A stretch of DNA of 64,000 nucleotides. Source: Tritonibacter scottomollicae (GTDB lineage: Bacteria; Pseudomonadota; Alphaproteobacteria; Rhodobacterales; Rhodobacteraceae). Under the pieces are notes generated by a model. That model was given only the letters and a program-made list of their open reading frames with translations, searched no databases and was not told the origin of the DNA. This document shows positions 11,188-48,610 of this stretch, one piece after another. Position 1 is the stretch's first letter; each line of letters opens with the position of its first letter. Location: contig NZ_PVUF01000010.1 in NCBI RefSeq assembly GCF_003003215.1, positions 1 to 64,000 of the forward strand. The letters are read 5' to 3'. Position numbers and translations under genes: made by a program.

Positions 11188-11188
11188 T

Positions 11189-12870: not shown

Positions 12871-12880
12871 GGATAAATCC

Positions 12881-26211: not shown

Positions 26212-26472
26212 TATTGTCCCCTCGTCGGGGCGAATGAAGCAAGAATCCAGGCTCGGAACAATAGAGAAAGCCTTGTCTTGCGTCGTTGAGTAGCCCGCCA
26301 AGCGCTGCTGGCTTTTGTTATCAAGAGTTTGCGGGAGATTACATCAAAAGCTCACCCGCCTGCGGATCTATGAAATCCACCCCCCTGTTTCCGGATCGCC
26401 GTCGTATGGCCGCACAACAGGAGAGGCGGCGCGGCAGATCCTGTCCTGCTTCCGTCAGGCGTCAAAGTAAGG

Positions 26473-29308: not shown

Positions 29309-30277
29309 TCACTTTGTCAGACAGGATTGCAGTTGCTGGCCAAGCTCAGCGTCGATCTCCATCACCTCGCCCCAACCTTCGGATTGGGCGGTCTCAGCCC
29401 ATAGCTCCTTGTCGGCGCCGTCAAAGGTGACGGTTTCAATGCCAGCTTCCGCCTGTGCGTCTGCTTCGGCCTGATTGCGCGCGATGTTTTCTTCGTTCTG
29501 CGTCTCGATCCAGGTGGCGGCCTGTTCCAGCAGCGCCTGTTGATCGGCGCTCAGGTCGTTCCAGCGGTCCATGTTCACCAGGAAGTTCACATCGACCTGA
29601 TAAAAACCAGGGTCGACCCGGTAGGCTGTCTGCTCGTGCCAACCAAGATCAAGAACCCCCTGGCTGGGCCAGCCATAGCCATCAATCGCACCGCGTTCGA
29701 GGGCGGTATAGACCTCGCCCGGGGCGGTACGCACAAGGGTTGCCCCCAATTTTTCAAACATGGCGCGATAGACTGGCGTGGTGCGAATGGTCAGACCGGT
29801 CAGGTCCGGACCCTCCAGCGGTTTCGCCAGATACAGGTGATAGTTCATGTTGTCGCCCACGCGGGCGAGGTATTTCACATTCATCTGCTGCTGGTGAATG
29901 CTGTCGATCAGCTCATAGCAGCCATTGGCGCGTTGGTCCTGAATGGTGTTTTGCGCCAGATGCAGCGCATCACCGGTGGGCAGCAGGTTCGGATAATAGG
30001 CTGTGGTGTTGTTCGCGATATCGACGATGCCAGCCTGAACCGCGTTGCCCAGTTCAAAGGGCGGCACCGCCTCGGGCCCGCCCAGCAGGTCGATCTGAAC
30101 CAGACCTGTGCCGTTTTCATTGACCCAGTCGACAAAGGCTTCGAAGTCGCGGGAGAAAGTTGTGCCGGTGGCAAAGGCCGTGACAGCCTTTAGCGTCACC
30201 TCTTCGGCTTGAACGCCGGCTGCGGTGAAGGTTGAGGCGCCAAAAAACGCGGCAGTGGCGAGTGAGCGGATGGTCAT
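29309..30277 (-). CDS. dctP: TRAP transporter substrate-binding protein (DctP)
   Basis: A 322-residue periplasmic binding protein. The ATG at 30277 has a GGGAGA ribosome site and a signal peptide (MTIRSLATAAFFGASTFTAAGVQA). The TRAP signature around DLTGLTIRTTPVYRAMFEKLGA contains the arginine that normally binds the substrate carboxylate, followed by APGEVYTALERGAIDGYGWP. The ligand is therefore probably a carboxylic acid, unidentified. The upstream region carries one copy of the shared TTYAA motif (30380-30399). Confidence 0.92.
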   Translation of the reverse strand: MTIRSLATAAFFGASTFTAAGVQAEEVTLKAVTAFATGTTFSRDFEAFVDWVNENGTGLVQIDLLGGPEAVPPFELGNAVQAGIVDIANNTTAYYPNLLPTGDALHLAQNTIQDQRANGCYELIDSIHQQQMNVKYLARVGDNMNYHLYLAKPLEGPDLTGLTIRTTPVYRAMFEKLGATLVRTAPGEVYTALERGAIDGYGWPSQGVLDLGWHEQTAYRVDPGFYQVDVNFLVNMDRWNDLSADQQALLEQAATWIETQNEENIARNQAEADAQAEAGIETVTFDGADKELWAETAQSEGWGEVMEIDAELGQQLQSCLTK

Positions 30278-30593: not shown

Positions 30594-31460
30594 TCAGTCG
30601 AACCATTTGTCGTCCAGCTCTGGCAGTGGAATCGCATCGAGCAGCAGGCGCGTGATGTCGGATTGCGGGGCGGCAAAGACCTGCTCTACGGGGCCGTTTT
30701 CCAGAATTTCACCACGGTTCAATACAATGACATTGTCGCATAGGTGCCGGATCACGCTCAGGTCATGGCTGATGAAGGCGATGGTCAGGTTCATCTCCTG
30801 CGCCAGCGATTTGAGCAGCGACAGCACCTGCGCCTGGCTGGAGACATCAAGGCCCGAAACGATCTCGTCGGCCAGAATGAACTCCGGCTCTAGTGCGATC
30901 GCGCGGGCGATGCCGACGCGCTGGCGCTGCCCGCCGGAAAGCTCATGCGGATACCGCTCGCCAAAGCTGGGATCGAGGCCGACACGTTCCAGCGCCCGCA
31001 GGGCCTGATCCCGACGCGCGGCGCTTGCGTTGCGGGTGGACGTGTCATTCGCGTAGCGCGCCAGTGGGGCGGCAACGATGCGCCAGATCTTGTGGCGCGG
31101 ATTGAGGGACGACATCGGATCCTGAAAGATCATCTGCAAGTTTCGCCGCAGGGGACGCAACGCCGCCTCGTCCAGCGTGGCGATATCTTGTCCATTGAGC
31201 AGAACCTGACCGGCATCCGGGCGCAACAGACGCACCAGAACCCGCCCCAAGGTCGATTTGCCAGAGCCACTCTCGCCAACGATGCCGGTGATCTGGCCCC
31301 GCGGCAGATCAAGATCGAGACCTTTCAGAACTTCGATCCGGGGTGCGGGGGCAAACAGCGGCTTATGGGCGGTATCGGGAAAGGAAAGGCGCAGGCCGCG
31401 CACCGAAAATAACGCCGGAGCGGGAGCAGTCTGTGGGCAGATCAAGGGAGCGGCCATCAC
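30594..31460 (-). CDS. peptide/opine-type ABC transporter ATPase (OppF/DppF)
   Basis: A 288-residue ATPase, last gene of the catabolic operon. Walker A is GESGSGKST, signature [19 protein letters not shown], Walker B FILADEIVSGLD and H-loop FISHDLSVIRHL. The start is taken as GTG at 31460 because GGAGG stands 7 bases upstream; an ATG at 31457 is equally in frame. It overlaps the preceding ATPase gene by 4 bp. The unusual DEIVSGLD instead of the common DEPTSALD keeps the catalytic glutamate. Confidence 0.92.
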   Translation of the reverse strand: MMAAPLICPQTAPAPALFSVRGLRLSFPDTAHKPLFAPAPRIEVLKGLDLDLPRGQITGIVGESGSGKSTLGRVLVRLLRPDAGQVLLNGQDIATLDEAALRPLRRNLQMIFQDPMSSLNPRHKIWRIVAAPLARYANDTSTRNASAARRDQALRALERVGLDPSFGERYPHELSGGQRQRVGIARAIALEPEFILADEIVSGLDVSSQAQVLSLLKSLAQEMNLTIAFISHDLSVIRHLCDNVIVLNRGEILENGPVEQVFAAPQSDITRLLLDAIPLPELDDKWFD

Positions 31461-32323
31461 AAGATCTCCTCCTGTGCGATCTTTGATTTCATCTGTGCGA
31501 TCAGTTCGGGCGGCACCGGAGAGAAGCTGCGAGCGGGGTCGGCGTAGCTGGGCGTGGCGGCAATCAGCGCGCGCGTATAGGGGTGGGTCGGATTGGAGAA
31601 GATTGCCTCGGTGGTTGAATCCTCCATGACGCGGCCTTGGAACAGCACGGATACTTTCTGGCTGATCTTGGCCACGACCCCCATGTCGTGGGTGACAAAC
31701 AGCACTGCGGTGCCAACTTCCTTTTGCAACTCTCTGATAAGTTTCAGAATCTGCTTCTGTACGGTGACGTCCAGCGCAGTGGTCGGCTCGTCCGCCACAA
31801 TCAGGGGCGGCGAGGGTGCAAAGGCTGCTGCGATCAGAATGCGCTGACGCATGCCGCCGGACAGTTCATGCGGGTAGCTGCGCATGACACGCGCCGGATC
31901 ACGAATTTCGACCCGATCCAGCAATTCCAGTGCCCGCGTCTGCGCACGTTCAGCAGACCAGCCATGGATGCGGGTCAGCGGGTCGGTGATCTGCGGCGCG
32001 ATCCGGCGTACCGGGTTTAGTGCGGTGAGCGGGTCCTGCGGGATCAGGGCGGCGCTCTGGGCAACGCAATGGCGTCTCTGGGCGGCGTTGAGGTGATCCA
32101 GTGCCTGACCCCTGAGGAAGATCTGACCGCGGGTCACCCGTGTCGCCGGGGGCAGGGTGCCCAGAACGGCCTTGCCGATCATCGACTTGCCAGCGCCACT
32201 TTCCCCAACTAGCGCGCGCACCTCTCCGGGCTCTAGCGTCAGGTTGACCTGTCTCAAAAGCGGTAAGCCGCTGCGCAGGGACACGGTCAGATTCTGGATG
32301 TTCAGCGTCGAGGACATGGTCAT
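31457..32323 (-). CDS. peptide/opine-type ABC transporter ATPase (OppD/DppD)
   Basis: A 288-residue ATPase. Walker A is GESGAGKSM, signature LSGGMRQRILIAAAFAPSP, Walker B LIVADEPTTALD and H-loop FVTHDMGVVAKI. The C-terminal HPYTRALIAATPS segment, typical of OppD/DppD, is present. It overlaps the permease gene upstream and the second ATPase gene downstream by 4 bp each (ATGA, GTGA), so the transporter subunits are translationally coupled. Confidence 0.92.
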   Translation of the reverse strand: MTMSSTLNIQNLTVSLRSGLPLLRQVNLTLEPGEVRALVGESGAGKSMIGKAVLGTLPPATRVTRGQIFLRGQALDHLNAAQRRHCVAQSAALIPQDPLTALNPVRRIAPQITDPLTRIHGWSAERAQTRALELLDRVEIRDPARVMRSYPHELSGGMRQRILIAAAFAPSPPLIVADEPTTALDVTVQKQILKLIRELQKEVGTAVLFVTHDMGVVAKISQKVSVLFQGRVMEDSTTEAIFSNPTHPYTRALIAATPSYADPARSFSPVPPELIAQMKSKIAQEEIL

Positions 32324-33186
32324 TGCAGCACCGGATCAAAGCGTTGTTTCAGCCCTTCGCCGAGCTGAGAGAAGCTCAGCACCGTGAGGAACAGGGCGAT
32401 CAGCGGGAACAGCAGCACCCACCAGGCAAAGTGGATGGCGTTGCGTCCCTCGGCAATCATGCTGCCCCAGGTCGCCACATCCGACGACAGAGACAAGTTC
32501 ACGAAGCTGAGGATCGCCTCGACGATCACCGCGATGCCCATCTCCAGCATCAGCAGGGCGACAATCGACGGCAGCACGTTTGGCAGGATTTCCGAAACCA
32601 GGGTGGTCAGTCGCCGCGCGCCGCCGATCTGCGCGCTGTCCACATAATCCATCTGCGCCTGCACCATGGTCTCGGCGCGGATCACACGGGCAAAGCGGGT
32701 CCAGTCAATCAGGGCGATGGCCACGATGACCGAGGTCAGACCAGTGCCCATGACTGCCACCAGCAACACCGCGAACAGCACCGGAGGAAAGGCCATCCAG
32801 ATCTCGATGAGGCGAGAGATCACCCGGTCCCACCAGCCGCCGAAATACCCGGCCAACAACCCAAGGGTCGAGCCCACCAGACAGGTTGCCGTTGCCGCGA
32901 TCAGGCTGACACACAGCGCGATGCGGGTGCCGTAGATGACCCGCGACAGAACGTCCCGGCCCAGACTGTCGGTGCCGAGCCAATAGCCCGGTTCCGTGCC
33001 GGACATGAAGAACGGGGGAAGGCGTTCGAGGAACAGATCCTGATAAAGTGGATCATGAGGCGCGATCAGCGGTGCAAAAAGGGCCGCCAGACCCAGCGTG
33101 GTGATCCAGGCCAATGGCAACCACAGACGCAGGTTGCGGCGCCCTGAGCGGACACGGGGCGTGGTTTGCAGGGAGACATCAGCCAT
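32320..33186 (-). CDS. peptide/opine-type ABC transporter permease (DppC/OppC)
   Basis: A 288-residue permease. After a short cytoplasmic start comes the first span (LWLPLAWITTLGLAALFAPLIAP), then the DppC-type periplasmic stretch ending in GTDSLGRDVLSRVIYGTRIAL, and five further spans. The coupling loop is YVDSAQIGGARRLTTLVSEILPNV. It overlaps the partner permease gene by 8 bp and the ATPase gene by 4 bp. Confidence 0.92.
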   Translation of the reverse strand: MADVSLQTTPRVRSGRRNLRLWLPLAWITTLGLAALFAPLIAPHDPLYQDLFLERLPPFFMSGTEPGYWLGTDSLGRDVLSRVIYGTRIALCVSLIAATATCLVGSTLGLLAGYFGGWWDRVISRLIEIWMAFPPVLFAVLLVAVMGTGLTSVIVAIALIDWTRFARVIRAETMVQAQMDYVDSAQIGGARRLTTLVSEILPNVLPSIVALLMLEMGIAVIVEAILSFVNLSLSSDVATWGSMIAEGRNAIHFAWWVLLFPLIALFLTVLSFSQLGEGLKQRFDPVLQ

Positions 33187-34186
33187 GACGCAACCTCGGG
33201 TTCAAAAGGGTGTAGGACAGATCCACCAGCAGGTTGATGGCCACAAACAGGGCGGCAAACAGCAGCACGATGCCTTGGATCAGCGGCAGATCACGATTGA
33301 TAACCGCATCAATGGCCATGTTCCCAAGGCCGCCGTAAGCAAAAAGGCGCTCCACGATCACCGTGCCACCGATGAGAAAGGTGAACTGCACCCCAACCAG
33401 CGTCAGCGTCGGCAGGGCGGCATTGCGCATGGCGTCCCGCAGGATCACTTGCGTTTCAGAGAACCCGCGCACCCGCGGCAAGGTGGTGTAGTCTTGGATC
33501 AGAACCTCCTTGAGGTTCTGCTTCAGCAATTGTGCAATCAACGCCGCCAATGGCAGCGCCAGCGACAGCGCCGGCATCAGCATATGTGAAAACGCGCTGC
33601 CAGCGACGTCGAAACGCCCCCGCAAAAGTCCCTCGATAGCCACGAAGTTGGTGAGGAAATCGAACTCGAGCCTCGGATCGAGACGCCCGGAAATAGACAG
33701 TACGGGCCAGAGCACACCAAACAGCAGGACAAACAGCAGCCCCCAGAGGAAATCGGGGATTGAGAGCACAGCGCCACTGGTCAGGTCGACAGCGGCCTCC
33801 GTCGGACTGCCCCGTCGACGCGCCCCGATCACGGCAGCCACACCGCCGATGGCGACCGCGATCAGCAAGGCAAAGAATGACAGCTCAAGCGTCGCCGGGA
33901 GGCGGGACAAGACCAGATCGGCGACCGGCTGGCGCAGGGTGATGGAGGTGCCGAAATCGCCCTGAACCACCCCGCCAATCCAGATGAAGAACTGTTCGAC
34001 CAGGCTCTTGTCGAACCCGTAGAGGGCTGTCAGCTGGGCGATGTCGTCCTCGCTCGCACCCGGCGGCAGCATCATGGCGATCGGATTGCCTGGTGCCACT
34101 CGCACCAGAACAAAGACAACAACCGCAACGCCAAACAGCGTGACGAGGGTCGTCAACAGACGGGACAGCACTGTCCTGAGAAACAT
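33179..34186 (-). CDS. peptide/opine-type ABC transporter permease (DppB/OppB)
   Basis: A 335-residue permease beginning MFLRTVLSRLLTTLVTLFGVAVVVFVLVRVAPGNP, the usual DppB start. The coupling loop is DYTTLPRVRGFSETQVILRDAMRNAALP. A GGAG site precedes the ATG at 34186; a TTG three bases upstream is an alternative. With the partner permease it forms the channel for the ligand of the binding protein encoded at 34247-35776. Confidence 0.92.
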   Translation of the reverse strand: MFLRTVLSRLLTTLVTLFGVAVVVFVLVRVAPGNPIAMMLPPGASEDDIAQLTALYGFDKSLVEQFFIWIGGVVQGDFGTSITLRQPVADLVLSRLPATLELSFFALLIAVAIGGVAAVIGARRRGSPTEAAVDLTSGAVLSIPDFLWGLLFVLLFGVLWPVLSISGRLDPRLEFDFLTNFVAIEGLLRGRFDVAGSAFSHMLMPALSLALPLAALIAQLLKQNLKEVLIQDYTTLPRVRGFSETQVILRDAMRNAALPTLTLVGVQFTFLIGGTVIVERLFAYGGLGNMAIDAVINRDLPLIQGIVLLFAALFVAINLLVDLSYTLLNPRLRHG

Positions 34187-34246
34187 CAAAGGTACTCCGC
34201 TTCGATGCCGCCGACCGCAACGGGCCGGCAGCAGGAGATTGACAGA

Positions 34247-35776
34247 TCAGACGGATGTCACGGCCTGGGGCAGCAGGTCGCCCGAGGTATAGGCCGCGAC
34301 GTTCAGATCCGAGCGGTAGACGATGGGCATCACATATTGCAGGAGCGGGATTACATAGCCCTCTTCAGCAATGTAGCGGGATACGTCCTTGTAGCCCTGA
34401 ATGCGCTTTTCTTCGTCGGCTTCCACGAACAGCGGGCCGATCTTTTCCACCAGATCCGGGGTGTCCCAGACCGCGTGTGGCGAGGGGCCGAACATGGAAA
34501 ATCCCGTCGATGTCGACGGATCACCGATCGAATTGCCCCAGTTGTAGAAGGCCGCAGGCGCCAGCTGGTCGGTGGCACGCAGCTCGTAGTGTTTGGCAAT
34601 CTCGTACACTTCGATTTCGGCTTCGATGCCGACACGACGCCACAGTCCGACGATGGCCTGCACCATTTCATAATCCTTGGGCTTAAAGCCCTTGGTCGTC
34701 TGAATGGTGAACTTGACCGGGTTGTCCGTGGAGTAGCCGGACTCTGCCAGCAACGCCTTGGCGCGCTCCGGGTCGTAGGGCACCGTGATGCTGTCGTCGA
34801 AGGCGGCATAGCCGGGCACTTCGAGGGTGGACAGCGGCACGCCATAGCCTTTCAGCAGCCGGTCGATGATCAGCTCCTTGTCGATGGCGTGATGGGCCGC
34901 GAGGCGGACATTCTTGTCGAGCATCGGCCCGATGTCGTTGAGGAAGATCATGCCGATATCGGTGATCGGCACCGCCTGACCGGACAGGCCGTCCTTGGCG
35001 ATCAGGCGGTCGTAATCTTCGTAGGGCATATTGGTGGTAATATCCGCGTTGCCGGATTCCACCTCGGCCACGCGCGAGGTCGCATCGGTCACGAATTTGA
35101 TCGTCACGGTGGAGAACTCCGGAGCCGCCCCCCAATAGCCGTCGTAGGCTTTCAGGCGGACGTAGGCGCCGGGTTCGAATGTATCCACCATATAGGGGCC
35201 AGATCCGATCGGTGCTTTCTCAAACCCTTCGGAGCCGACGCTTTCGTAATAGTCCTTGGGCAGAACAAAGGCCGTCAGAAACGCCATCCATTTGAACAAG
35301 GCCGGTTCGAACTCGATCACATCTGCGGTGATGCGCTGCCCGTCGATTTGGAAATTGCCGATCTTGGACCAGACGAACTGCATCGGGTTTCCGGTTTCGG
35401 ACTGGGCGGCACGGGTCAGCGACCAGACGATGTCATCCGGGGTCAGCGGATCCCCGTTCTGCCAGGTCACCCCTTCGCGGACGGTCATGTGGATCTGGGA
35501 TTTGTCCTCGCTGAACCCCCAGTCGGTCAGCAGCCCGGCGTCAAAGCTGAGATCCGGGTTCTGGCCGACAAAGCGGTCGAACACCGCCAAGTAGATGGAT
35601 TGCAGCACCGGGTTGACCGCAGCAGGGCCGGTGGTCGGATCCCAGCTTTGCACAGGCACGTTATAGGCAATGGTCAGGTCGCCCCCGTTCTGGGCGATCA
35701 CCGGCAGGCCGGATGCCGCAAGAGCGGTGGCAAAGGCTGAGGTGCCTAGGAAACCACGACGGTTCATAGTGTTCAT
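34247..35776 (-). CDS. peptide/opine-type ABC transporter substrate-binding protein (SBP family 5)
   Basis: A 509-residue periplasmic binding protein. The N-terminus NRRGFLGTSAFATALAASG contains a twin-arginine-like motif before the hydrophobic segment, so Tat export is possible. Family-5 features are visible: DLTIAYNVPVQSWDPT, VREGVTWQNGDPLTPDDIVWSLTRA, FEKAPIGSGPYMV and ILAESGY-like ALLAESGYSTDNPVKFTIQT. A ribosome site (AGGAGAG) precedes the ATG at 35776. Family 5 binds peptides but also opines, sugars and other small molecules; given the catabolic genes upstream the ligand may be the pathway substrate rather than a peptide. Confidence 0.92.
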   Translation of the reverse strand: MNTMNRRGFLGTSAFATALAASGLPVIAQNGGDLTIAYNVPVQSWDPTTGPAAVNPVLQSIYLAVFDRFVGQNPDLSFDAGLLTDWGFSEDKSQIHMTVREGVTWQNGDPLTPDDIVWSLTRAAQSETGNPMQFVWSKIGNFQIDGQRITADVIEFEPALFKWMAFLTAFVLPKDYYESVGSEGFEKAPIGSGPYMVDTFEPGAYVRLKAYDGYWGAAPEFSTVTIKFVTDATSRVAEVESGNADITTNMPYEDYDRLIAKDGLSGQAVPITDIGMIFLNDIGPMLDKNVRLAAHHAIDKELIIDRLLKGYGVPLSTLEVPGYAAFDDSITVPYDPERAKALLAESGYSTDNPVKFTIQTTKGFKPKDYEMVQAIVGLWRRVGIEAEIEVYEIAKHYELRATDQLAPAAFYNWGNSIGDPSTSTGFSMFGPSPHAVWDTPDLVEKIGPLFVEADEEKRIQGYKDVSRYIAEEGYVIPLLQYVMPIVYRSDLNVAAYTSGDLLPQAVTSV

Positions 35777-35862
35777 GTCTTCTCTCTCCTGTTGGCGGGC
35801 CTGTTTCGACCCAATTTATTTTTTGTGTTTTGCCCATGCGGGCAGGGGCGACCGCAGGGCGG

Positions 35863-37404
35863 TCAAAGGTCTTGTGCCTTGAAAAACCCCGAACCGGCGC
35901 CGGTGCCGGCGCCTGGCCAGACCGCAGCTCCGATCATGTGCAACCCCTTGATAGGGGTCGTGCCATCGGCGAACCCACGCACCGGGCGGAACAGAAAGTT
36001 CTGCCGCAGATGATGCGAGCCGCAGAGCTGGTCGCCGCCGACGAGGTTGGGGTTGCCAGCTTCCAGATCTCTCGGCGACACTACGGTCTGGGCGAGAATG
36101 CGGTCCCGCACTCCCGGTGCCTGCTCCTCCAGCTGATCAATCACGCGGGCTGCAAATGGCGCTTTGGCCTGATCCCAGTCCCGTGCGGAGATCTTGCCTT
36201 TGGCGTCCCCTGCGATATCCGCAGGCAGGACGCGAACCTGCACCCAGAGCGTCTGTTTGCCCTCCGGCGCGCGTGTTGGATCAAAGACCGAAGGTTGCCC
36301 AACCACCAACACCGGTCTGTCCGGCAGCAAACCGGCCATCGCCTGTTGATAGGTCTGCGCCGTGGCGTCGATGGACTGGCCGACATGCACATAGGCAAAG
36401 CGACCCAATTCGGGGGCAGCCCACGGCACCGGGCCATCCAGTGCAAGGTGAATCATCATCGTGCCAGGTGCGTGGCGGAAGGCGTCAAGCCCGGCATCAA
36501 AACGGGCGTGGCCGCTATCGCCAATCAGCGTGGACAGATGACGCGGCGCCAGTCCGGCCAGCACCGTCTTGGCGGCGATGTCTTCGCCATTGACGCTCAG
36601 GCCCGTGACGGTTCCGTGCGTATGGGAAATGGCGCGGACATCGGCATCGCAGGTGACGCTGCCGCCATGGGCCTCGATCATCCGCACAAGCGCGTCCGTG
36701 ACAGTCGCGGCACCGCCCTTGCCGATGACCATGCCCTGTGCCTGTCCGCCGAGGGCCTCGAGGAACGGGAAGATGGCCCCGCCTGCAACATCCGGCGCAA
36801 AGTCCAGATGCAATCCCCAAGTGGAAAAGGCGCAATGCAATCGGGGATCTTCGAACGTGTCCTGCAGCCAGTCGCGGGGGGAGGTCATCAGCAGGCGGGC
36901 GATATCGGTCATCTTGCCGAGCCCCAGGCTGCGCCACTGTCGCCAAACGAACTTCAGCAGCGCTGTTCGCGTCATTGGCGTCCCCAGAAGCCCACCGATT
37001 ACCGCAGCCTTCTCGGGGAATTCGCGCATCAATGACTGCCAGGTGTCTTTGTCTTGCTCACTGTGAAAGCTCGCCAGCGTTTCGTTGATATCTGTCGACA
37101 CGCCGACAAAATCGCCCGGCGTCATCGCCTGGGCAAAGGGACGATCGACGGACACCAGCTCCAGCCCATGGCGGGCCATCTCCTCGCCATGGCGCGCCAT
37201 GAAGCCGGAGCCTGCGAACATCGAGAGGTTCATCGCGGCCACGTCATGGTGAAAGCCGGGCAGTGTCAGCGCCTTGGTCTGCACCGCCCCGCCGGGGGTG
37301 GGGCCGCGCTCCCAAACCTGAACCTTGCGCCCGCGTGCGGCCAGATCTGCGGCGGCCACAAGACCGTTGATCCCGGCGCCAATGATATGAATGGGGCCGC
37401 TCAT
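35863..37404 (-). CDS. CrtI-like NAD(P)/FAD-dependent oxidoreductase, copy 1
   Basis: A 513-residue flavoprotein of the phytoene-desaturase/amine-oxidase superfamily. The dinucleotide fold is IIGAGINGLVAAADLAARGRKVQVWERG and the C-terminal FAD site is IKGLHMIGAAVWPGAGTGAGSG. Members outside carotenoid synthesis oxidise C-C or C-N bonds of varied substrates. No other carotenoid gene is nearby, so a carotenoid role is unlikely. It overlaps the IorB-like gene by 4 bp and precedes the binding protein by 86 bp. It is a paralogue of the protein at 41702-43273; both have a GNPNLVGGD/MNANLVGGD segment and a related C-terminus. Confidence 0.85.
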   Translation of the reverse strand: MSGPIHIIGAGINGLVAAADLAARGRKVQVWERGPTPGGAVQTKALTLPGFHHDVAAMNLSMFAGSGFMARHGEEMARHGLELVSVDRPFAQAMTPGDFVGVSTDINETLASFHSEQDKDTWQSLMREFPEKAAVIGGLLGTPMTRTALLKFVWRQWRSLGLGKMTDIARLLMTSPRDWLQDTFEDPRLHCAFSTWGLHLDFAPDVAGGAIFPFLEALGGQAQGMVIGKGGAATVTDALVRMIEAHGGSVTCDADVRAISHTHGTVTGLSVNGEDIAAKTVLAGLAPRHLSTLIGDSGHARFDAGLDAFRHAPGTMMIHLALDGPVPWAAPELGRFAYVHVGQSIDATAQTYQQAMAGLLPDRPVLVVGQPSVFDPTRAPEGKQTLWVQVRVLPADIAGDAKGKISARDWDQAKAPFAARVIDQLEEQAPGVRDRILAQTVVSPRDLEAGNPNLVGGDQLCGSHHLRQNFLFRPVRGFADGTTPIKGLHMIGAAVWPGAGTGAGSGFFKAQDL

Positions 37405-38957
37405 GCAGCGTCTCCGGCGAAGCTCTGGACCGTGGCCAGCGCGCCCTCCAGTTGCGCCCCAGACTCATCGGCCAAGGCGGCAGTGCGCAGTCGTCGCATC
37501 CAGTCCGCCGCGTCGGGCCGCCCCTGCAGAATGGGCAGCGCCTGCATGATGCGGGCGAATTTCGAATGGCCGCGCACATGTGTGTCTGAGTAGCCCTTGA
37601 TCAGCCGGTAGTTGGCCAAAAGCTCCGTCGCCAGAGCGCGGTCACGTTGGGCCACTTCTGTCACCGTGGCGAACCACTGGTCGATATGGGCCATCTCTGT
37701 TTCATGTCGCAGCAAAGACCGGCGCCAGGGCCGCAGCGCCGACACCGCCCAGAGCATCAGGAACCCACGCAGCCGGTCGGTTCGGATCCGGCGCCCCTTG
37801 TCTAGATAGCGCGCGTAGAACGCTTCGAGACGGGATGAGTTGCGCAGCCGTTTGCCAAGCCAGCCGGGCAGTGTTGTAGTGAATTCTTCAAAGCGCGGAT
37901 GGAAATACTCGGTCACCATCAACACCTGGTCATCCCCCACCACGACCTCGTCGCGCACACGGGTCATCCGGCTGGCGCGGGTCTTGATGTCGGCGACCCG
38001 CAGAATGTCATCGTAGCACAGCGCGCGGGAGCAGTATTTCGCCCCTGCAATGGTCATCTCGAACGGAGCGCTGTCCGTCACGGCCAGAGCTTCGACCATG
38101 TCCATATACTGCTCGCCGTAGGCAAGGTCCTGATAATCCACCACTTTGGTCAGCCCCAATCCCGCCATCTCCTGGGCCGCGGCGGGCAAGGCATTAAGGC
38201 GCGATTGCAATTGCGCCCATTTGTCCTGATGGCGGGATGGCACATGCAGCGTTTCGATCTGCTTCGTTTCCGCTTCGGGCTGTGGCGGTTGCTGTTTACC
38301 CGTGGCGCAGTCAAACGCATCATTGAAAGCCCGCAGCGAGGCCTCGACGCCCCGGCCTGAGGCGCGGATCACGTCCTCATAGCTCTCCTTGGGAAAGGGC
38401 AGGGCGCCAGACCCGGCCAGCCCGCCCAGCAGCGAGGACGAGATCATCGACCCGGCAGATTTTGCCAGCGCCTCCATGTCGAAGGCCACCGTATGATCGG
38501 CGGCAATGCCCATGGCTTCGATCACCTTCTGACCATCGGCACGCCCATCTCCGGGAACCGTTTTTTCCGCAACCGCAGGAATGCGATGGGTCGAAGCGAT
38601 CAGGGTGGTGCGCCCCGGCGTCACAAAGCCACGCATGATCGCGCGGCCCCCTTCCATCAGTTCGGACGCGATCAGGATGTCGACGTCCCCTTCGGCGGGC
38701 GACAGGGCAAAGACCGGCATACGGCCGGTGTCGCGACACATTTCGACATAGTAGATCGTGGCCCCCGTGCGCTGGGCCACACCCGCGACCGAGGTGGATT
38801 GCGCACGATAGCCATTGGCCTCCGCGACGGCCGTGATCCAGTTGGTCAGGACGCCACCGCCCTGGCCACCAACGGCAAGTGCGGCCAGCGTGATGATTTT
38901 TTCACCTTCTGCGCTGGGCGAACGGCGGGCGGCAATCGAGGTGTTTTGAATGTTCAT
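37401..38957 (-). CDS. indolepyruvate oxidoreductase subunit beta-like protein with C-terminal extension
   Basis: A 518-residue protein. Residues ~20-200 are the 2-oxoacid:acceptor oxidoreductase gamma-type domain (LAVGGQGGGVLTNWI, STSVAGVAQRTGATIYYVE, AEGDVDILIASELMEGGRAIMRG), which in archaeal IorB is the whole protein (~200 residues). The remaining ~300 residues form an extra helical domain (DUF6537-like, as in proteobacterial homologues). The ATG at 38957 gives MNIQNTS; the longer open frame upstream crosses the alpha-subunit gene. It should pair with the alpha subunit at 38971-41115, 13 bp upstream, to oxidatively decarboxylate an arylpyruvate to an acyl-CoA. Confidence 0.85.
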   Translation of the reverse strand: MNIQNTSIAARRSPSAEGEKIITLAALAVGGQGGGVLTNWITAVAEANGYRAQSTSVAGVAQRTGATIYYVEMCRDTGRMPVFALSPAEGDVDILIASELMEGGRAIMRGFVTPGRTTLIASTHRIPAVAEKTVPGDGRADGQKVIEAMGIAADHTVAFDMEALAKSAGSMISSSLLGGLAGSGALPFPKESYEDVIRASGRGVEASLRAFNDAFDCATGKQQPPQPEAETKQIETLHVPSRHQDKWAQLQSRLNALPAAAQEMAGLGLTKVVDYQDLAYGEQYMDMVEALAVTDSAPFEMTIAGAKYCSRALCYDDILRVADIKTRASRMTRVRDEVVVGDDQVLMVTEYFHPRFEEFTTTLPGWLGKRLRNSSRLEAFYARYLDKGRRIRTDRLRGFLMLWAVSALRPWRRSLLRHETEMAHIDQWFATVTEVAQRDRALATELLANYRLIKGYSDTHVRGHSKFARIMQALPILQGRPDAADWMRRLRTAALADESGAQLEGALATVQSFAGDAA

Positions 38958-38970
38958 GTCGTCAATTCCT

Positions 38971-41115
38971 TCAGGCGAAAACCACGCGTTTCGCGTCACG
39001 CCTGCGTTGCAGCCAATCAATGATCTTTTGGGTCCTGCGCGCCTTGCGGCCTTCGCGCGGGGTGGGGTTTGATACGATATCGGCCTGATAGAAACTGGGG
39101 CAGAGCACGGCGGCATCGGCGACCTCGCCGCAATTGCCGCATCCGACGCAGGTCTGGTCGATCGCCGCAACCGGGTCATCGCGCAGTGGATCGCCGGTAT
39201 CCTTGACCGACAGGGACGGGCAGCCCGAAAGCCGCATGCAGGCGTGATCGCCGGTGCAGATGTCCTCATCAACGCCAAAGCGTGGCCGCACGGTGCGCTT
39301 GCCTTCCTTGGTGGCCTTGGCCAGCAGTGGTTTCTCCCGACGCTGTCGGTTCAGCATGCATTCTGAGGAGGCGACGATGACCTTCGGGCCTGCAACTTGT
39401 GTTGTCAGTGCCTCTTTCAGCGTGTCGCGGACCTTGGTGACGTCATAGGTTCTGTCGATCTGGCGGATCCATTTGACGCCCATGCCCTGGCAGGCCTCGA
39501 CGATGGAGTTCTGCGTCTGCTTGGTCTTGTTGTCTGCGCGGGATGATAGGATGTCCTGCCCGCCGGTCGCCGCCGCATAAAAATTGTCGACGATCACGAT
39601 CACATTGTCGGACTTGTTGAAGACCGCATTGCCCACAGACGACGTCAGACCATTGTGCCAGAACCCGCCATCCCCGACGAAGGAGATCGAGCGGCGGCCA
39701 TGCGGGTCTTCGTTGTGAAACGCCGAAGCCGAGGCCGGACCTAGTCCATACCCCATCGTTGTTGCGCCAAGATCAAAGGGCGGCATGATCGAAAACAGAT
39801 GGCAGCCGATGTCCGATGAAATGTGGTGCTCACCCAGTTCCTGCTCGACCAGTTTTGTCGCTGCAAAGATCGGCCGCTCCGGGCAGCCGGTGCAGAACCC
39901 CGGCGGGCGTGCGGGCAGAACGTCGGACAGATCCGGGATCGGCGCCGGTGCTTCGTTCTTGGTGACCGCGGCGGCTGGCATCAGGCCCGGCGCATATGCC
40001 GTCAGAAACTCCCCAAGCCCGTGCAGCATCACCTGTCCGGTATATTCGCCCCCCATCGGCAGCATGCCCTTGCCCTCAAGCGTGACGCGCTTGCCGGCCT
40101 TGTAGAGCATATGCCCGATCTGCTGTTCGATGTAGTTGGGCTGGCCCTCCTCGACGATCAAAACGGCCTCCTTGTCCTCGCAAAAGTCGAGGATTTGGCT
40201 TTCGACCAGCGGGTAGACACAGTTGAGGCAGAGAATATCAAGATCGGTATCGCCATAAAGGTCGGCAAGCCCAAGACGGTTCAGCGCGCGGTTCACCGTG
40301 TTGTAGGTCCCACCCTGGATGATCAGACCGACCTTTCCAGATGGCTGCCCAAACCGCTCGTTCAGGCCGCGTTCCAGAATGAAGCGTTCAGCCGCGGGTT
40401 TGCGTTTGGTCAGCTTCTCCGCCTCATGAAGATAGGTGGCAGGGGGCAGGACGATCCGCTCAAGATCCCGGCGGGGGCTTTCCAGCGCCTGGCTCACTGT
40501 CATATCGGGGCGGCGATTGTCGGAGGCGGCGAAAGAGCCGTGCACATGGCAGGAGCGGATGCCCATCTGCAGCATGACCGGCGTGTTGCTGGCCTCCGAC
40601 AGCTCAAAACCATCCCCAACTGCGGCGACGATCGAGGGCAGGTTGGGGCGCGGGTCCAGCATCCAGACCTGGCTTTTCATGGCAAAGGCATAGGTGCGCT
40701 CCTGCATGATCGAAGAGCCTTCGCCGTAGTCTTCGCCGACAATGATGAGCGCGCCGCCGGTTACGCCGCCCGAGGCCAGATTGGACAGCGCATCGGAGGC
40801 CACATTGGTCCCGACAACGGATTTGTAGGTGACCGCTCCGCGAATGGGGTAATGTACGGATGCCGCCAGCATCGCCGTTGCGGTGGCCTCGCTTGCGGAG
40901 GCTTCAAACCGGACGCCCAGCTCTCCGAGGATCTCCTGCGCATCTGCAAGAACATCCATCAGATGCGAAATCGGCGAGCCCTGATAGCCCCCGACATATC
41001 CAACGCCATTTTCCAGCAGCGCCTTGGTGATGGCGAGGATCCCTTCGCCCGAGAAGGTCTCTCCATCTCCCTGTTTCAGTTTTTGGACTTCCTTGGCAAA
41101 GGAACGTTCAGCCAT
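38971..41115 (-). CDS. indolepyruvate oxidoreductase subunit alpha-like protein
   Basis: A 714-residue thiamine-diphosphate enzyme. The pyrimidine-binding half opens with GEGILAITKALLENGVGYVGGYQGSP; the pyrophosphate half has FCTGCPER (Cys408, Cys411) and the ThDP motif GDGGFWHNG (481-489) ending near VDNF. The C-terminus carries a two-cluster ferredoxin-like domain: cluster one reads C620-x2-D623-x2-C626-x5-C632-P, with Asp at the place of the second cysteine, and cluster two C656-x2-C659-x2-C662-x9-C672-P. It converts an aryl 2-oxoacid plus CoA to aryl-acetyl-CoA, CO2 and reduced ferredoxin in known relatives. An AAGGAG site precedes the ATG. A 143-bp gap separates it from the MarR gene upstream, so it may have its own promoter. 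Confidence 0.87.
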   Translation of the reverse strand: MAERSFAKEVQKLKQGDGETFSGEGILAITKALLENGVGYVGGYQGSPISHLMDVLADAQEILGELGVRFEASASEATATAMLAASVHYPIRGAVTYKSVVGTNVASDALSNLASGGVTGGALIIVGEDYGEGSSIMQERTYAFAMKSQVWMLDPRPNLPSIVAAVGDGFELSEASNTPVMLQMGIRSCHVHGSFAASDNRRPDMTVSQALESPRRDLERIVLPPATYLHEAEKLTKRKPAAERFILERGLNERFGQPSGKVGLIIQGGTYNTVNRALNRLGLADLYGDTDLDILCLNCVYPLVESQILDFCEDKEAVLIVEEGQPNYIEQQIGHMLYKAGKRVTLEGKGMLPMGGEYTGQVMLHGLGEFLTAYAPGLMPAAAVTKNEAPAPIPDLSDVLPARPPGFCTGCPERPIFAATKLVEQELGEHHISSDIGCHLFSIMPPFDLGATTMGYGLGPASASAFHNEDPHGRRSISFVGDGGFWHNGLTSSVGNAVFNKSDNVIVIVDNFYAAATGGQDILSSRADNKTKQTQNSIVEACQGMGVKWIRQIDRTYDVTKVRDTLKEALTTQVAGPKVIVASSECMLNRQRREKPLLAKATKEGKRTVRPRFGVDEDICTGDHACMRLSGCPSLSVKDTGDPLRDDPVAAIDQTCVGCGNCGEVADAAVLCPSFYQADIVSNPTPREGRKARRTQKIIDWLQRRRDAKRVVFA

Positions 41116-41258
41116 GGGTGGTCTCCTTGGGTCGTACCGACCGACATCTGAAGGGGACGACGCGCTGTCGCTGTGCCTCCATGTCGGAAAACTTGGTCAC
41201 ATGCGCGATGCAGGTGGCATGGATCTGCCCCTCATCGGGACAGGGCCGCGAGGGCCTT

Positions 41259-41705
41259 TTAAAAATCGTGCTGGCGGATGTTGTAGAACACGCGCAGCAG
41301 CAGATCGTTCATCATCTTTCTGTCGTCTGGAGAGAGCGCGGACAGCATGACCTCCTGCATCTGCAGCATGGCCGGCCAGGCGGTTTCGTGGACGTGCCGC
41401 CCCGTGTCTGTCAGCTGGATGTGGCGGATGCGGCTGTCTTTGCTGTCGGCCTCGCGCCGGATCAGCCCGGCTGTTTCCATGGTGTCCAGCGTGCGTGACA
41501 GCGTTGATTGCTTGATCACCGTCAGCACGGAGAGTGTATTGATGGTGCAGGGGCCGCTCTCGGTCAGCACCGCCAGCGCGCGCATCTGCGCCACCGTGAT
41601 CCCAACCTCCTTCAGGGCCTCTTCAACACCCTTGTTGTAGCGCGCCATGATGCGGTTCATCAGATAAGGGGTGAACTCCTCCAGATGATCGGGGCCGGTG
41701 GTCAT
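41259..41705 (-). CDS. MarR-family transcriptional regulator (within catabolic operon)
   Basis: A 148-residue winged-helix regulator. The core is EVGITVAQMRALAVLTESGPCTINTLSVLTVIKQSTLSRTLDTMETAGLIRREADSKDSRIRHIQLTDTGR in pieces, the standard MarR fold with the DSKDSRIRHI wing. The ATG at 41705 overlaps the stop of the FAD oxidoreductase gene by 4 bp (ATGA); a much longer open frame upstream overlaps that gene and is rejected. MarR repressors commonly control catabolism of aromatic acids and release DNA on binding the substrate. A palindrome it could bind lies upstream of the first gene of the unit (44130-44149). Confidence 0.88.
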   Translation of the reverse strand: MTTGPDHLEEFTPYLMNRIMARYNKGVEEALKEVGITVAQMRALAVLTESGPCTINTLSVLTVIKQSTLSRTLDTMETAGLIRREADSKDSRIRHIQLTDTGRHVHETAWPAMLQMQEVMLSALSPDDRKMMNDLLLRVFYNIRQHDF

Positions 41706-43273
41706 GCGCCAAGCTCCTTCGCCACGAGATAGCCCGAGCCACCTGACAGACCGGGGCCCGGATGGGTCGAGGCCCCGATGTGATAGAGGCCCTTTACCCC
41801 GGTGGTGTGCCGTTTGCTGTCCGTAAAAGGGCGCCAGAGAAAGAACTGCTCCAGCGAGCAGGCGCCGCCATAGGGGTCGCCGCCCACAAGGTTGGCATTC
41901 ATGCCAGCCAGATCTGCAGGTGAAATGGCCCGTCGTGTCACGACCTTGGAGGAAAAGCCGTCGATATGGCTGGCCAGGATCTGCTCGACACGATCTGCAA
42001 ACGCCTCGCGCAGCTCCGGCGTCCAGCTGCCGTCCTCGGGAACGGAGATTTCGCCCTTGGCATCGCCTTTGACGTGACGTGGGGCCTCTGGCATCTGCAG
42101 CCAAAGAACGGATTTTCCGTCCGGCGCGCGTGTCGGGTCTGCGGCACAGGGTTGGCCGACGCAGATTGTCGGCACCTCCGGCAGCAGGCCGCGCTCTGCC
42201 TCATTTCCGGCCTTGGAGACCCCGTCCAATCCCGGTGTCAGATGCAACAGCTGCACGGTCTCAACTCCCGGCGTGCGCCAGGTCACCGGCCCATCGAGGA
42301 CGTAGTGCAGCTGAAAGTTCCCCTTGCCATAACGATAGCGGCGCAGGTCGTCCGCTTTGCTCTCTCCCTCGAGCAGCGTACCGTAGAGCTGATGCGGCGT
42401 GACCGAGGCCAGTACGGAGGGCGCGGCGATATACTCCGCGTCAGCAAGGGTGACGCCAGTGACCGCCCCGCTGGCCTGTTCAATCCGGCTGACGTCGGCG
42501 TTGGTGCGCACCGTCCCGCCGTGTTCCTCGATGATCGCGCACAGGCCCTGCACCATGGACGCGATGCCGCCCTTGGCGATCGGTGCACCGGCGGCTTCGA
42601 GGGCAAAGCCGATGATCTGTCCCATCTGTCCGGAAAAGGCAGCTTCCGGCCCAAGGCCCGCATGCAGGCACCACGGCGCCCAGAGCGCCTGAGACAGTTC
42701 GGACTGGAAGGAGGTTTCCAGCCAACCCCGCATCGAGGTCAGCGATTCCCCCATGGTCGCGGCAAGCCCGTGGGGGCCACGTTTCCAGGCCTCCTTGCCG
42801 AGCAGCTTGGCAGTTGCGCGGGACCATGGATCGCCGCCCATCAGTCCGAACAGCAGATCAGCCTTGCCGCCGAACGCGTCCAGATCCGCAGAAAGCTGGT
42901 CGCCATCGCCCGCCGCTGCCGCGTTGAAGGCCGCAACATTGGCGGCACGATCCATCTGGTAGACCAGCGACTGACCGTCGGGCAGGAGCACGCCAGTGGG
43001 CGTCCGGGTGGCGCAGAATTCGACGCCGTGACGGGTCAGGTCGTCGCCAAGGGCGGCATGGGCAGCTCCGGTCACCCACAGGACCAACGTGGTCGCCAAA
43101 GGGTCATGGAGCACGCCGTCGCCGAGCGGTTCGGTGCGCATGCAGCCACCTGCCACGGATTCACGTTCCAACAGCACCACGCGCTTTCCGGCCTTGGCTA
43201 GCAGGGCGCCAGAGGTCAGCGCGTTGATGCCTGAACCTATGATGGCAACGTCGAATTCAGTGGCAGATGACAT
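41702..43273 (-). CDS. CrtI-like NAD(P)/FAD-dependent oxidoreductase, copy 2
   Basis: A 523-residue flavoprotein. FAD-binding motif AIIGSGINALTSGALLAKAGKRVVLLERE at the N-terminus and GVKGLYHIGASTHPGPGLSGGSGYL at the C-terminus. The middle includes GGDPWSRATAKLLGKEAWKRGPHGLAATMGESL. It is distantly related to the protein at 35863-37404 but not a recent duplicate. It starts 4 bp after the cyclase stop. Two such oxidoreductases in one operon suggest two successive oxidations of the imported compound or its products, or a two-subunit enzyme. The substrate is unknown. Confidence 0.85.
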   Translation of the reverse strand: MSSATEFDVAIIGSGINALTSGALLAKAGKRVVLLERESVAGGCMRTEPLGDGVLHDPLATTLVLWVTGAAHAALGDDLTRHGVEFCATRTPTGVLLPDGQSLVYQMDRAANVAAFNAAAAGDGDQLSADLDAFGGKADLLFGLMGGDPWSRATAKLLGKEAWKRGPHGLAATMGESLTSMRGWLETSFQSELSQALWAPWCLHAGLGPEAAFSGQMGQIIGFALEAAGAPIAKGGIASMVQGLCAIIEEHGGTVRTNADVSRIEQASGAVTGVTLADAEYIAAPSVLASVTPHQLYGTLLEGESKADDLRRYRYGKGNFQLHYVLDGPVTWRTPGVETVQLLHLTPGLDGVSKAGNEAERGLLPEVPTICVGQPCAADPTRAPDGKSVLWLQMPEAPRHVKGDAKGEISVPEDGSWTPELREAFADRVEQILASHIDGFSSKVVTRRAISPADLAGMNANLVGGDPYGGACSLEQFFLWRPFTDSKRHTTGVKGLYHIGASTHPGPGLSGGSGYLVAKELGA

Positions 43274-43277
43274 AGTT

Positions 43278-44069
43278 TTAGGCCCCCGGAACCAGTGCGA
43301 GAACGCGCACCGGAGATCCTGTTCCGTTGACGATCTTCAGCGGCGCAGTGACCACGATCGCGCCTTTGGCGGGCAGCTCCTTGAGATTGGTCAGCGAGGC
43401 CAGACCATAGCGGTTTGCCTTGTGCAGCAGGTTATGGGCCGGGAAGGGCAGTTCAAAACTGGCCGCTAGTCCGGCGTCGGTCCCAATGCACTGAGACCCC
43501 CAACCAAGCGCATTTTTCTCCATCAGGTATTCGATGCAGTCTGCCGAGGGGCCGGGGGTGTGAGGGCCGTTCTCATCGGTGTTGAGAAACTTGTCCTCGT
43601 CGTGGTTGTACTGATCCCAGTCGGTGCGCATCAGGACCCATTCGCCGGCCTTGATCTCGCCGTGTTCGGCTTCCCAGTCCTGCACGCCCTGCTTGGTCAG
43701 CAGGAAATCATTGTCTTCGGCGGCCTGCGCCGAACAGTCGATGACATTTGCAGGGGCCATGAATTTTTGCGGATCGATCGTGTCGACGGACCCATCCGGA
43801 TAGTCCTTGCCGGTGACCCAATGGTGCGGCGCATCGTAATGCGTGCCCGAATGCTCACCAAGCTTGAGCCAGTTCCAGGCCCAGAACGGACCACGGTCGC
43901 CGTATCTCGAAATCTGATTAATTTCGATCTGGGGCGTGTCGTCTGCGATCTCGGGCGGTAGCTTCAAAAGCGGGGTGTCCGGTCCCAGCGGGGCGGAGCA
44001 ATCGACGACCCTGATCCCCCCATCCAGAAGTCCCGAGGCAAGTGCGGCAAGCGTGTCTGTTTGGTTCAT
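43278..44069 (-). CDS. cyclase-family metal hydrolase, isatin-hydrolase-like
   Basis: A 263-residue hydrolase of the cyclase/kynurenine-formamidase superfamily. The metal motif HxGTHxDxPxH is complete: His73, His77, Asp79 and His83 in GEHSGTHYDAPHH. The flanking segments VVDCSAPLGPDTPLLKLPPE, RGPFWAWNWLKLGEH and ANRYGLASLTNLKELP, and the C-terminus GTGSPVRVLALVP, resemble the Mn-dependent isatin hydrolase described from a marine Rhodobacterales-type bacterium, as I remember it. Such enzymes open a lactam or amide ring (isatin to isatinate). The ATG at 44069 has GAGG just upstream; one at 44078 is possible. It is the first gene of the operon. Confidence 0.85.
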   Translation of the reverse strand: MNQTDTLAALASGLLDGGIRVVDCSAPLGPDTPLLKLPPEIADDTPQIEINQISRYGDRGPFWAWNWLKLGEHSGTHYDAPHHWVTGKDYPDGSVDTIDPQKFMAPANVIDCSAQAAEDNDFLLTKQGVQDWEAEHGEIKAGEWVLMRTDWDQYNHDEDKFLNTDENGPHTPGPSADCIEYLMEKNALGWGSQCIGTDAGLAASFELPFPAHNLLHKANRYGLASLTNLKELPAKGAIVVTAPLKIVNGTGSPVRVLALVPGA

Positions 44070-44129
44070 TGACCTCATCCCTGTTGTTGTTCTCGCTTGG
44101 TATATATGCAGGTGGATATTTCTCATTGT

Positions 44130-44149
44130 TTCAAGTATAAAGTTTCTAA
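44130..44149. promoter_or_regulatory. copy 3 of the shared TTYAA-N2-WTRAA motif, in front of the catabolic operon
   Basis: TTCAAGTATAAAGTTTCTAA, 61 bp upstream of the cyclase start. It shares 15 of 20 bases with the copy at 1081 and 14 of 20 with that at 30380. On the minus strand a TTGAAA inside it could be a -35 box with TGCATA 18 bases on. The region is strongly AT-rich compared with its surroundings, as expected of an operator/promoter. Confidence 0.45.
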
Positions 44150-45751: not shown

Positions 45752-45805
45752 GACGGTGCCCATCCACCTTTTCAGTCTTCCCAAAAGCAGCTTTGGGAAA
45801 ATTTG

Positions 45806-48533: not shown

Positions 48534-48610
48534 GCGGTTGTAGCTCAGATGGTTAGAGTACCGGCCTGTCACGCCGGGGGTCGCGGGTTCGAGCCCCGTC
48601 AACCGCGCCA
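48534..48610 (+). tRNA. tRNA-Asp (GTC), copy 1
   Basis: A 77-nt tRNA with CCA encoded. Acceptor arms GCGGTTG and CAACCGC pair fully; the anticodon arm CCGGC-CTGTCAC-GCCGG gives anticodon GTC; the T loop is TTCGAGC. It differs from copies 2 and 3 at three positions (D loop A for C, position after the D stem A for G, variable region G for A). Confidence 0.95.

Follow-up and report, generated by a model that had tools for sequence, protein, structure and literature searches.

A conserved gene cluster of Tritonibacter scottomollicae with a predicted role in isatin catabolism

Introduction

Which compound is degraded by a gene cluster that combines a putative isatin hydrolase with two CrtI/CrtO-like flavin adenine dinucleotide (FAD) oxidoreductases, a thiamine-dependent 2-oxoacid oxidoreductase (IorAB), a MarR regulator and an oligopeptide (Opp)-type importer? 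The cluster is located in Tritonibacter scottomollicae on a stretch of 64,000 nt of contig NZ_PVUF01000010.1 (assembly GCF_003003215.1), here referred to as the window, with coordinates counted from its first letter. The cluster was identified as a genuine and widely conserved module, whose predicted reactions are those of isatin catabolism. In the reading that is considered probable for the locus as a whole, isatin, an indole oxidation product from a side branch of indole metabolism, would be hydrolysed to isatinate, which would be converted to anthraniloyl-coenzyme A (CoA) and further degraded by way of 2-aminobenzoyl-CoA monooxygenase/reductase (ABM).

Isatin hydrolase has been characterized by crystal structures and kinetics. 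A review from 2018 (PMC6221969, available in part) described its role in indole breakdown as unsettled, and the cluster, if the reading is true, suggests a physiological purpose for this long-known enzyme. In a search of the open-licence literature, accessible partly as incomplete texts, no paper on this cluster and none joining isatinate with anthraniloyl-CoA was found among those listed. An analogous step is said to have been proposed for anaerobic indole degraders.

The Cyclase of the Cluster

The first gene of the cluster, cyc, codes for a protein in which 166 of 260 residues (63.8%) are identical to LaIHB, the isatin hydrolase of Labrenzia aggregata (PDB 4j0n/4m8d). The closest solved structures are 4j0n (E = 2.9e-118), followed by 5nmp, 5nna and 5nnb (E about 1e-84), all of them isatin hydrolases. 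The Mn-ligand motif HxxxHxD, present within HxGTHxDxPxH, and the catalytic histidine following it are kept, with H92, H96, D98 and H102 of Cyc corresponding to H73, H77, D79 and H83 of LaIHB. Residues W65, W84, F209 and H212 and the GLAS motif (222-225) of LaIHB are also conserved. The pocket of Cyc contains WAW at 82-84, where a tryptophan replaces Phe63 of LaIHB, and GLAS at 241-244. Both variants are permitted in the family, for which a WxW or FxW pocket and either GLAS (IHB) or GLQC (IHA) are given in the available part of PMC6117287; in that part the terms "operon" and "gene cluster" are absent and no gene cluster is described.

LaIHB itself was found to be 92-93% identical to cyclases of two Tritonibacter mobilis records, Roseibium and Leisingera, all of which adjoin iorAB. 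In Tritonibacter and Roseibium the full cluster is present, and in Leisingera a cyc-marR-iorAB variant with genes of a tripartite ATP-independent periplasmic (TRAP) transporter. At this identity to cyclases inside such clusters, the characterized LaIHB is of the same kind as the cyclase of the cluster. The original prediction, made from the window sequence, had already named an isatin-hydrolase type of cyclase; this was substantiated, and a grouping of Cyc away from the isatin hydrolases was not observed. The predicted function, opening of the lactam ring of isatin to yield isatinate, is thus a strong assignment.

An alternative assignment as kynurenine formamidase KynB (TIGR03035) was rejected, since Cyc reaches 24 bits compared to an equivalog cut-off of 223. 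The genome's second PF04199 protein (contig C25) was rejected as a part of the pathway, since no link was apparent from its surroundings.

Conservation of the Cluster

The distribution of the genes was analysed in a panel of 292 Rhodobacterales genomes (labelled G and number), with thresholds of E <= 1e-150 for IorA, E <= 1e-55 for the cyclase and E <= 1e-90 for Crt1, the first of the two FAD enzymes. In addition, the best 80 of at least 595 stretches from a scan of named genomes (labelled L and number), to which all statements on named loci refer, and thirteen annotated plasmid regions were inspected.

IorA was matched in 50 of the 292 genomes, 46 of them at an identity of at least 64%. An isatin-hydrolase-like cyclase was identified in 43 genomes, and all 43 also contain IorA; copies of at least 60% identity are present in 31 of them and only copies of 44-52% in the other 12. 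Three of the 46 IorA genomes are devoid of the cyclase. For 29 of 48 iorA copies, a cyclase gene is found on the same strand at a distance of up to 5 kb. All 24 genomes with crt1 contain IorA, a cyclase of at least 60% identity and ABM, and crt1 lies no more than 35 bp from the cyclase gene in 22 of them. For crt2, the gene of the second FAD enzyme, 26 genomes were found, which also contain crt1 with two exceptions (G148 and G289).

Among the 80 named loci, iorB adjoins iorA in 78 and the cyclase is present in 58. The genes crt1, crt2 and sbp5, the last coding for the binding protein of the importer, were identified in 42 loci each, crt1 together with the cyclase in 41 of its 42; ABM is found in the flanks of 17 loci and a StyA-type monooxygenase in 3. 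The hosts are Rhodobacterales, Mesorhizobium, Rhizobium, Hoeflea, Roseibium and others. Three arrangements were recognized: a one-directional form like that of the window, a form with two divergent arms (Tritonibacter, Mesorhizobium) and a split form (Rhizobium). The smallest units, consisting of cyc-marR-iorA-iorB, occur in Sulfitobacter indolifex, on two Paracoccus plasmids and in Pacificibacter. Since the same gene set recurs in other genera, the cluster represents more than a chance assembly. The co-occurrence in other Rhodobacterales, on which the original prediction had hinged, is thus present.

A full cluster was also found in the planctomycete bin of a Blastopirellula metagenome-assembled genome (L093). 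Its IorA is nested among those of Sulfitobacter, and the contig is probably misbinned.

IorAB and the Predicted Conversion of Isatinate

For IorA, the best NCBIfam model is TIGR03336 (indolepyruvate ferredoxin oxidoreductase alpha subunit), with 292 bits and thus below the equivalog cut-off of 651, while IorB exceeds the subfamily cut-off of NF006179 (indolepyruvate oxidoreductase beta family) with 660 versus 348 bits. Seven C-terminal cysteines of IorA, at 620-672, are invariant in 8 sequences. The thiamine pyrophosphate (TPP) and POR-type subunits and the conserved cysteines are shared with the phenylglyoxylate and indolepyruvate:ferredoxin oxidoreductases; the cluster enzyme differs from these by its split two-subunit form with DUF6537 and by the score below the cut-off. 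In a tree of IorA, calculated by a quick method with Shimodaira-Hasegawa-like approximate likelihood ratio (SH-aLRT) support only, sequences from cyc, TRAP and iad loci interleave, and the window sequence falls within a supported set of ten, all from cyclase loci.

Isatinate is 2-aminophenylglyoxylate, an arylglyoxylate and hence a 2-oxo acid, which is the substrate class of the IorAB superfamily. Because the product of the hydrolase is a 2-oxo acid, the minimal operons pair IorAB with cyc, and ABM co-occurs with IorA, isatinate is the expected substrate of IorAB. With thiamine and Fe-S clusters the enzyme would catalyse the CoA-dependent oxidative decarboxylation of isatinate to anthraniloyl-CoA and CO2, a well-supported prediction from the gene content, and this route, if true, saves the ATP of a CoA ligase.

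A homologue of ABM is present in 45 of the 46 IorA genomes, in three of them only at 48-49% identity, as compared to 74 of the 246 others (Fisher p = 2e-19). In the source genome, contig C1 encodes in one row ABM (68% identity), a short-chain dehydrogenase/reductase (SDR), an enoyl-CoA hydratase, an acyl-CoA dehydrogenase and a CoA ligase. This ABM scores 1311.5 bits against the cut-off of 1078 for NF006101, a model for the bifunctional salicylyl-CoA 5-hydroxylase/oxidoreductase, so that the amino substrate is a predicted one; the CoA ligase reaches 374.8 bits, with the cut-off for benzoate-CoA ligase at 375.25. An ABM gene near the cluster was also found in Alloyangia and G001, and in G001 and Alloyangia relatives ABM and RidA genes are located directly upstream of cyc. 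Anthraniloyl-CoA would accordingly be passed to enzymes encoded on contig C1 in the source genome and inside the cluster in close relatives. The absence of ring dioxygenase, CoA ligase and anthranilate genes noted in the original prediction holds for the cluster itself, but not for the genome, given the ABM, CoA ligase and beta-oxidation genes of contig C1.

In two panel genomes (G197:C39:9510-11789 and G207:C187:12523-14796) a cluster-type ABM, 83-85% identical to that of Alloyangia, was identified together with no IorA match at E <= 1e-150.

Possible Formation of Isatin

Both FAD enzymes have the carotenoid ketolase CrtO as best NCBIfam model, with 131 bits for Crt1 and 152 bits for Crt2 (cut-off 1000); for CrtI the values are 108 and 133 bits (cut-off 238). 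A carotenoid role was rejected, since both proteins lie far under the cut-offs of all carotenoid models. The folds nearest to the structure model of Crt1 (predicted local distance difference test, pLDDT, 82.8) are carotenoid desaturases, followed by N-heterocycle and amine oxidases including the nicotine oxidoreductase NicA2, and they leave the substrate unsettled.

Crt1 may form isatin, by oxidation of dioxindole, indoxyl or oxindole, since its gene adjoins that of the hydrolase and in Azospirillum lies between an indole monooxygenase module and cyc (gene row SDR, StyA-type monooxygenase, flavin reductase, transporter, crt1, cyc). Genes similar to crt1 also occur without cyc, for example in Mesorhizobium loti NZP2037, and in Sulfitobacter sp. 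DSM 110093 a crt1-crt2-importer block is located apart from cyc-iorAB on the same plasmid.

Alloyangia, G025, G260 and Gemmobacter have the oxygenase module of SDR, StyA-type monooxygenase and flavin reductase close to the cluster, with StyA-type matches in G260 and G025, and iad-like Rieske genes are combined with IorAB in 3 of the named loci and two plasmid loci. An indole-derived substrate, as originally proposed, is likely, because the clusters of relatives adjoin indole monooxygenase or iad-type Rieske genes.

It is tentatively proposed, with a confidence somewhat short of even for both parts together, that the split IorAB family including iadAB of auxin-degrading bacteria is a new kind of aerobic isatinate:CoA oxidoreductase, forming anthraniloyl-CoA without ATP, and that Crt1 and Crt2 belong to a new class of CrtO-like flavoenzymes, which convert oxindole, dioxindole or indoxyl to isatin with no need for a ring dioxygenase.

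Transporters

Genes for a TRAP transporter (30277-27440) follow on the same strand, 316 bp downstream of the last ATPase gene of the importer, an ATP-binding cassette (ABC) system. The binding protein DctP (PF03480, 106 bits) has its closest solved relative in Bpro_4736 of Polaromonas (4mnc/4mni), which we take to be in complex with benzoylformate; the next match is at 4.9e-13. R165 of DctP is invariant in 8 sequences and may bind a carboxylate. DctP was identified in 17 panel genomes (11 at an identity of at least 67%, 6 at 39-46%) and adjoins iorAB in 8 named loci, in seven of them at 61-78% identity. Since all 17 genomes carry IorA, though mostly not beside DctP, the TRAP transporter probably belongs to the cluster, and it would import arylglyoxylates or isatinate. 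Seven of the 8 iorAB-TRAP loci contain no cyclase in the available flanks, a pattern that would fit uptake of the preformed oxo acid.

The solved relatives of the family-5 binding protein bind dipeptides, agrocinopine or nickel. The Opp-type importer accompanies crt1 and crt2, with sbp5 in 38 of the 42 crt1 loci, and Crt2 and the importer would handle an imported precursor.

Alternative Functions

The original prediction had IorAB convert arylpyruvates to arylacetyl-CoA. Such an enzyme would make indoleacetyl-CoA or another arylacetyl-CoA, with the cyclase cleaving a later lactam, and it would agree with TIGR03336 as best model of IorA and with the indolepyruvate name in public annotations. 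However, the score of IorA is below the equivalog cut-off, genes for phenylacetyl-CoA or indoleacetyl-CoA are missing from the cluster, and isatin hydrolase is the only enzyme that accompanies IorAB in the minimal operons. The more likely arylpyruvate enzymes are two long fused indolepyruvate oxidoreductase (IOR) proteins that are also encoded in the genome; their frames measure 1141 and 1165 aa, and they share 27-28% identity with the IorA of the cluster. With isatinate being a 2-oxo acid, the strict pairing of cyclase with IorA and the presence of ABM in nearly all IorA genomes, the function originally assigned has become less likely, and the arylpyruvate route is judged quite unlikely. A closer variant, in which IorAB oxidises a range of arylglyoxylates, such as phenylglyoxylate from mandelate, and isatinate is one among several, is suggested by the iorAB-TRAP loci devoid of a cyclase and by the presumed benzoylformate ligand of the DctP relative. 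It is countered by the presence of this IorA in all 43 cyclase genomes and by the specificity of ABM, the substrate of which is 2-aminobenzoyl-CoA and not benzoyl-CoA according to the available part of PMC3534580, so that it is regarded as unlikely.

The joint occurrence of crt2 and the importer, with 42 loci each for crt2 and sbp5 and with sbp5 in most crt1 loci, would also fit a larger conjugate or peptide-like molecule as main substrate, taken up by the Opp-type importer and split by Crt2 or Crt1, with isatin as a mere intermediate; a recurring peptidase or glycosidase gene was not found in the loci inspected, and this reading appears somewhat unlikely. A role in the detoxification of isatin, a bioactive indole product, instead of growth is very unlikely: small plasmid units of cyc-marR-iorAB without an oxygenase would be in line with it, but the Opp-type and TRAP importers in the window and the link to ABM would not, since importers misfit detoxification.

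A number of observations weigh against isatin catabolism via anthraniloyl-CoA. ABM is common regardless of the cluster (119 of 292 genomes), no ABM link is seen for IorAB relatives of 51-56% identity (7 genomes, p = 1), all p-values for co-occurrence are inflated by the relatedness of the genomes by descent, and 22 of the named loci show no cyclase in the available DNA, which is short for some. Of the 17 genomes with DctP, just 4 encode it within about 5 kb of iorA and one more at about 10 kb, whereas in the other 12 the two genes are widely separated or on different contigs; its structure model is of low confidence (pLDDT 61) and adds little to the sequence match. No match to a StyA-type indole monooxygenase was obtained in the source genome or in G001, G016, G124 and G196, and none to the iad-type Rieske proteins (IadDE) in the source genome at E <= 1e-20, in a search in which two iad control genomes (via L107 and L115) matched at 70 and 78%; the source genome may consequently rely on external oxindole, dioxindole or isatin as its starting compound. 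Anthranilate is restored in Variovorax by nine iad genes (iadC-K2) without iadAB (PMC12633357), so that an IorAB-type enzyme is dispensable there for free anthranilate. A compound C8H7NO3, not named in the section describing it, strongly accumulates only in strains overexpressing iadC-K2 (PMC12633357); the formula fits isatinate, and an enlarged pool would fit the missing iadAB. Finally, iorAB is found in another setting in Ruegeria pomeroyi and Shinella.

This second setting of the same IorAB family, on the R. pomeroyi megaplasmid (L023) and a Shinella plasmid (L024), consists of genes for a thioesterase, two MarR proteins, a nitrilase-type hydrolase, a cupin and a member of the fumarylacetoacetate hydrolase family.

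Comparison to Known Systems

IorA and IorB correspond to iadA and iadB, which are described as marker genes of auxin-degrading loci in the available part of PMC9613470. With the iad loci of Variovorax, Achromobacter and Bradyrhizobium the cluster has in common iadAB and, by prediction, isatin and isatinic acid as intermediates and control by MarR, and the IorA encoded in an iad-like locus of Bradyrhizobium shares 69% identity with the reference IorA from Alloyangia. In contrast to the iad loci, no IadCDE match was found in the source genome, a type B isatin hydrolase is present instead of an IadI-like one, and crt1, crt2, the Opp-type importer and the TRAP transporter are added. The suggestion that the route differs from those of the iac and iad clusters was therefore correct for the entry, but not for IorAB as iadAB and for the loci with additional iad-like Rieske genes.

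The iif indole cluster of Acinetobacter uses a direct dioxindole-to-anthranilate oxygenase. Some relatives carry an SDR, a StyA-type monooxygenase and a flavin reductase like iifB/C/D (PMC6221969, available in part); this oxygenase set is missing from the source genome, and the direct oxygenase would be replaced in the module by Crt1, isatin hydrolase and IorAB. The 2-aminobenzoyl-CoA pathway, with ABM of Azoarcus evansii and Arthrobacter, resembles the source genome in the ABM homologue and the adjoining CoA ligase on contig C1, with the difference that anthraniloyl-CoA would here also arise without a ligase, from isatinate. If true, a shared conversion of isatinate to anthraniloyl-CoA joins the breakdown of indole, isatin and auxin to this pathway, and sharp predictions are provided for culturable and genetically tractable bacteria such as Tritonibacter, Sulfitobacter and Mesorhizobium.

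Organization and Regulation

The eleven genes of the original prediction, their single strand, tight spacing and families were confirmed by the open reading frames (ORFs), all of which are intact with one terminal stop each on the minus strand, and by the gaps between them. The cluster spans 44069 (or 44126) down to 30594 (Table 1). In the order of transcription, the gaps are 4 bp for cyc-crt1 (with the cyclase end at 43278), -4 for crt1-marR, 143 for marR-iorA, 13 for iorA-iorB, -4 for iorB-crt2, 86 for crt2-sbp, 57 for sbp-permease, and -8, -4 and -4 bp for the remaining genes. The Pfam families are Cyclase PF04199 (119 bits), Amino_oxidase/NAD_binding_8 (twice), MarR, TPP_enzyme_C, POR with DUF6537, SBP_bac_5, BPD_transp_1 (twice) and ABC_tran/oligo_HPY. 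The limits originally drawn were revised, since the linked TRAP transporter lies beyond them and the cyclase start was moved. The start at 44069 (MNQTD...) is more likely than that at 44126, because in the longer reading the homology to LaIHB sets in at residue 23 and the stretch between both starts contains a recurrent motif.

Table 1: Features of the putative isatin cluster and the linked TRAP genes in the window.
Feature	Position	Strand	Basis
cyc, predicted isatin hydrolase type B, 263 aa	43278..44069, readable from 44126	-	PF04199; 63.8% to LaIHB (4j0n)
crt1, CrtI/CrtO-fold FAD oxidoreductase, possible isatin former	41702..43273	-	PF01593/PF13450
marR, MarR-family regulator	41259..41705	-	PF12802/PF01047; 4-bp overlap with crt1
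iorA, TPP subunit (Fe-S-type cysteines) of a split 2-oxoacid oxidoreductase, predicted to be an isatinate:CoA oxidoreductase	38971..41115	-	TPP_enzyme_C
iorB, POR gamma-type + DUF6537 subunit	37401..38957	-	PF01558, PF20169; NF006179
crt2, second CrtI/CrtO-like FAD oxidoreductase, 34% identical to crt1	35863..37404	-	Pfam and NCBIfam profiles
sbp5, family-5 solute-binding protein of Opp-type importer	34247..35776	-	PF00496, 239.5 bits
ABC permease, OppB-like	33179..34189	-	PF00528, PF19300
ABC permease, OppC-like	32320..33186	-	PF00528
ABC ATPase, OppD-like	31457..32323	-	PF00005, PF08352
ABC ATPase, OppF-like	30594..31460	-	NCBIfam scan only: best NF008453, 254 bits, below cut-off 408
dctP, TRAP binding protein, Bpro_4736 type	29309..30277	-	PF03480; 4mnc/4mni E = 2.6e-79
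dctQ, TRAP small permease	28768..29307	-	ORF; 41% match adjoining iorAB in L020
dctM, TRAP large permease (probable start, MDWIL... reading)	27440..28756	-	ORF; 59% match adjoining iorAB in L020
TGCATAT half-site, possible MarR operator upstream of cyc	44104..44110	.	motif enrichment in cyc upstream regions

The motif ahead of cyc is a TGCATAT inverted repeat, identified in 27 of 57 upstream regions, while 200 shuffles gave 2.3 on average and 8 at most; the count is inflated by near-copies such as the Mesorhizobium loci. MarR probably controls the cluster through this candidate operator, of which the window retains a single half-site. An operator common to cyc, iorA, sbp and dctP was sought in the window, with nothing convincing found.

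Surrounding Genes

Upstream of cyc, a second MarR gene (44497-44985, minus strand) codes for a protein 76% identical to the MarR located between RidA-ABM and cyc in G001, and at this site the RidA-ABM part has apparently been lost from the window. The next gene (45149-45784, minus strand) is autoinducer-synthase-like (PF00765, 31.5 bits versus a cut-off of 24); its scanned neighbours, coding for a hybrid histidine kinase and a MarR protein, do not include a LuxR. In an Rfam scan of the window three tRNAs only and no riboswitch were detected, the tRNA genes being consecutive at 48534-48926 (plus strand). At 7409-13486 (plus strand), genes for a glycoside hydrolase family 36 (GH36) alpha-galactosidase, an IlvD/EDD dehydratase, an SDR, a 2-keto-3-deoxygalactonokinase and an aldolase of the 2-keto-3-deoxy-6-phosphogluconate (KDPG) type form a De Ley-Doudoroff-like galactose pathway. 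A Metallophos protein and an AAA_27 protein of 1145 aa, encoded in tandem at 21539-26301 (minus strand), resemble an SbcD/SbcC pair.

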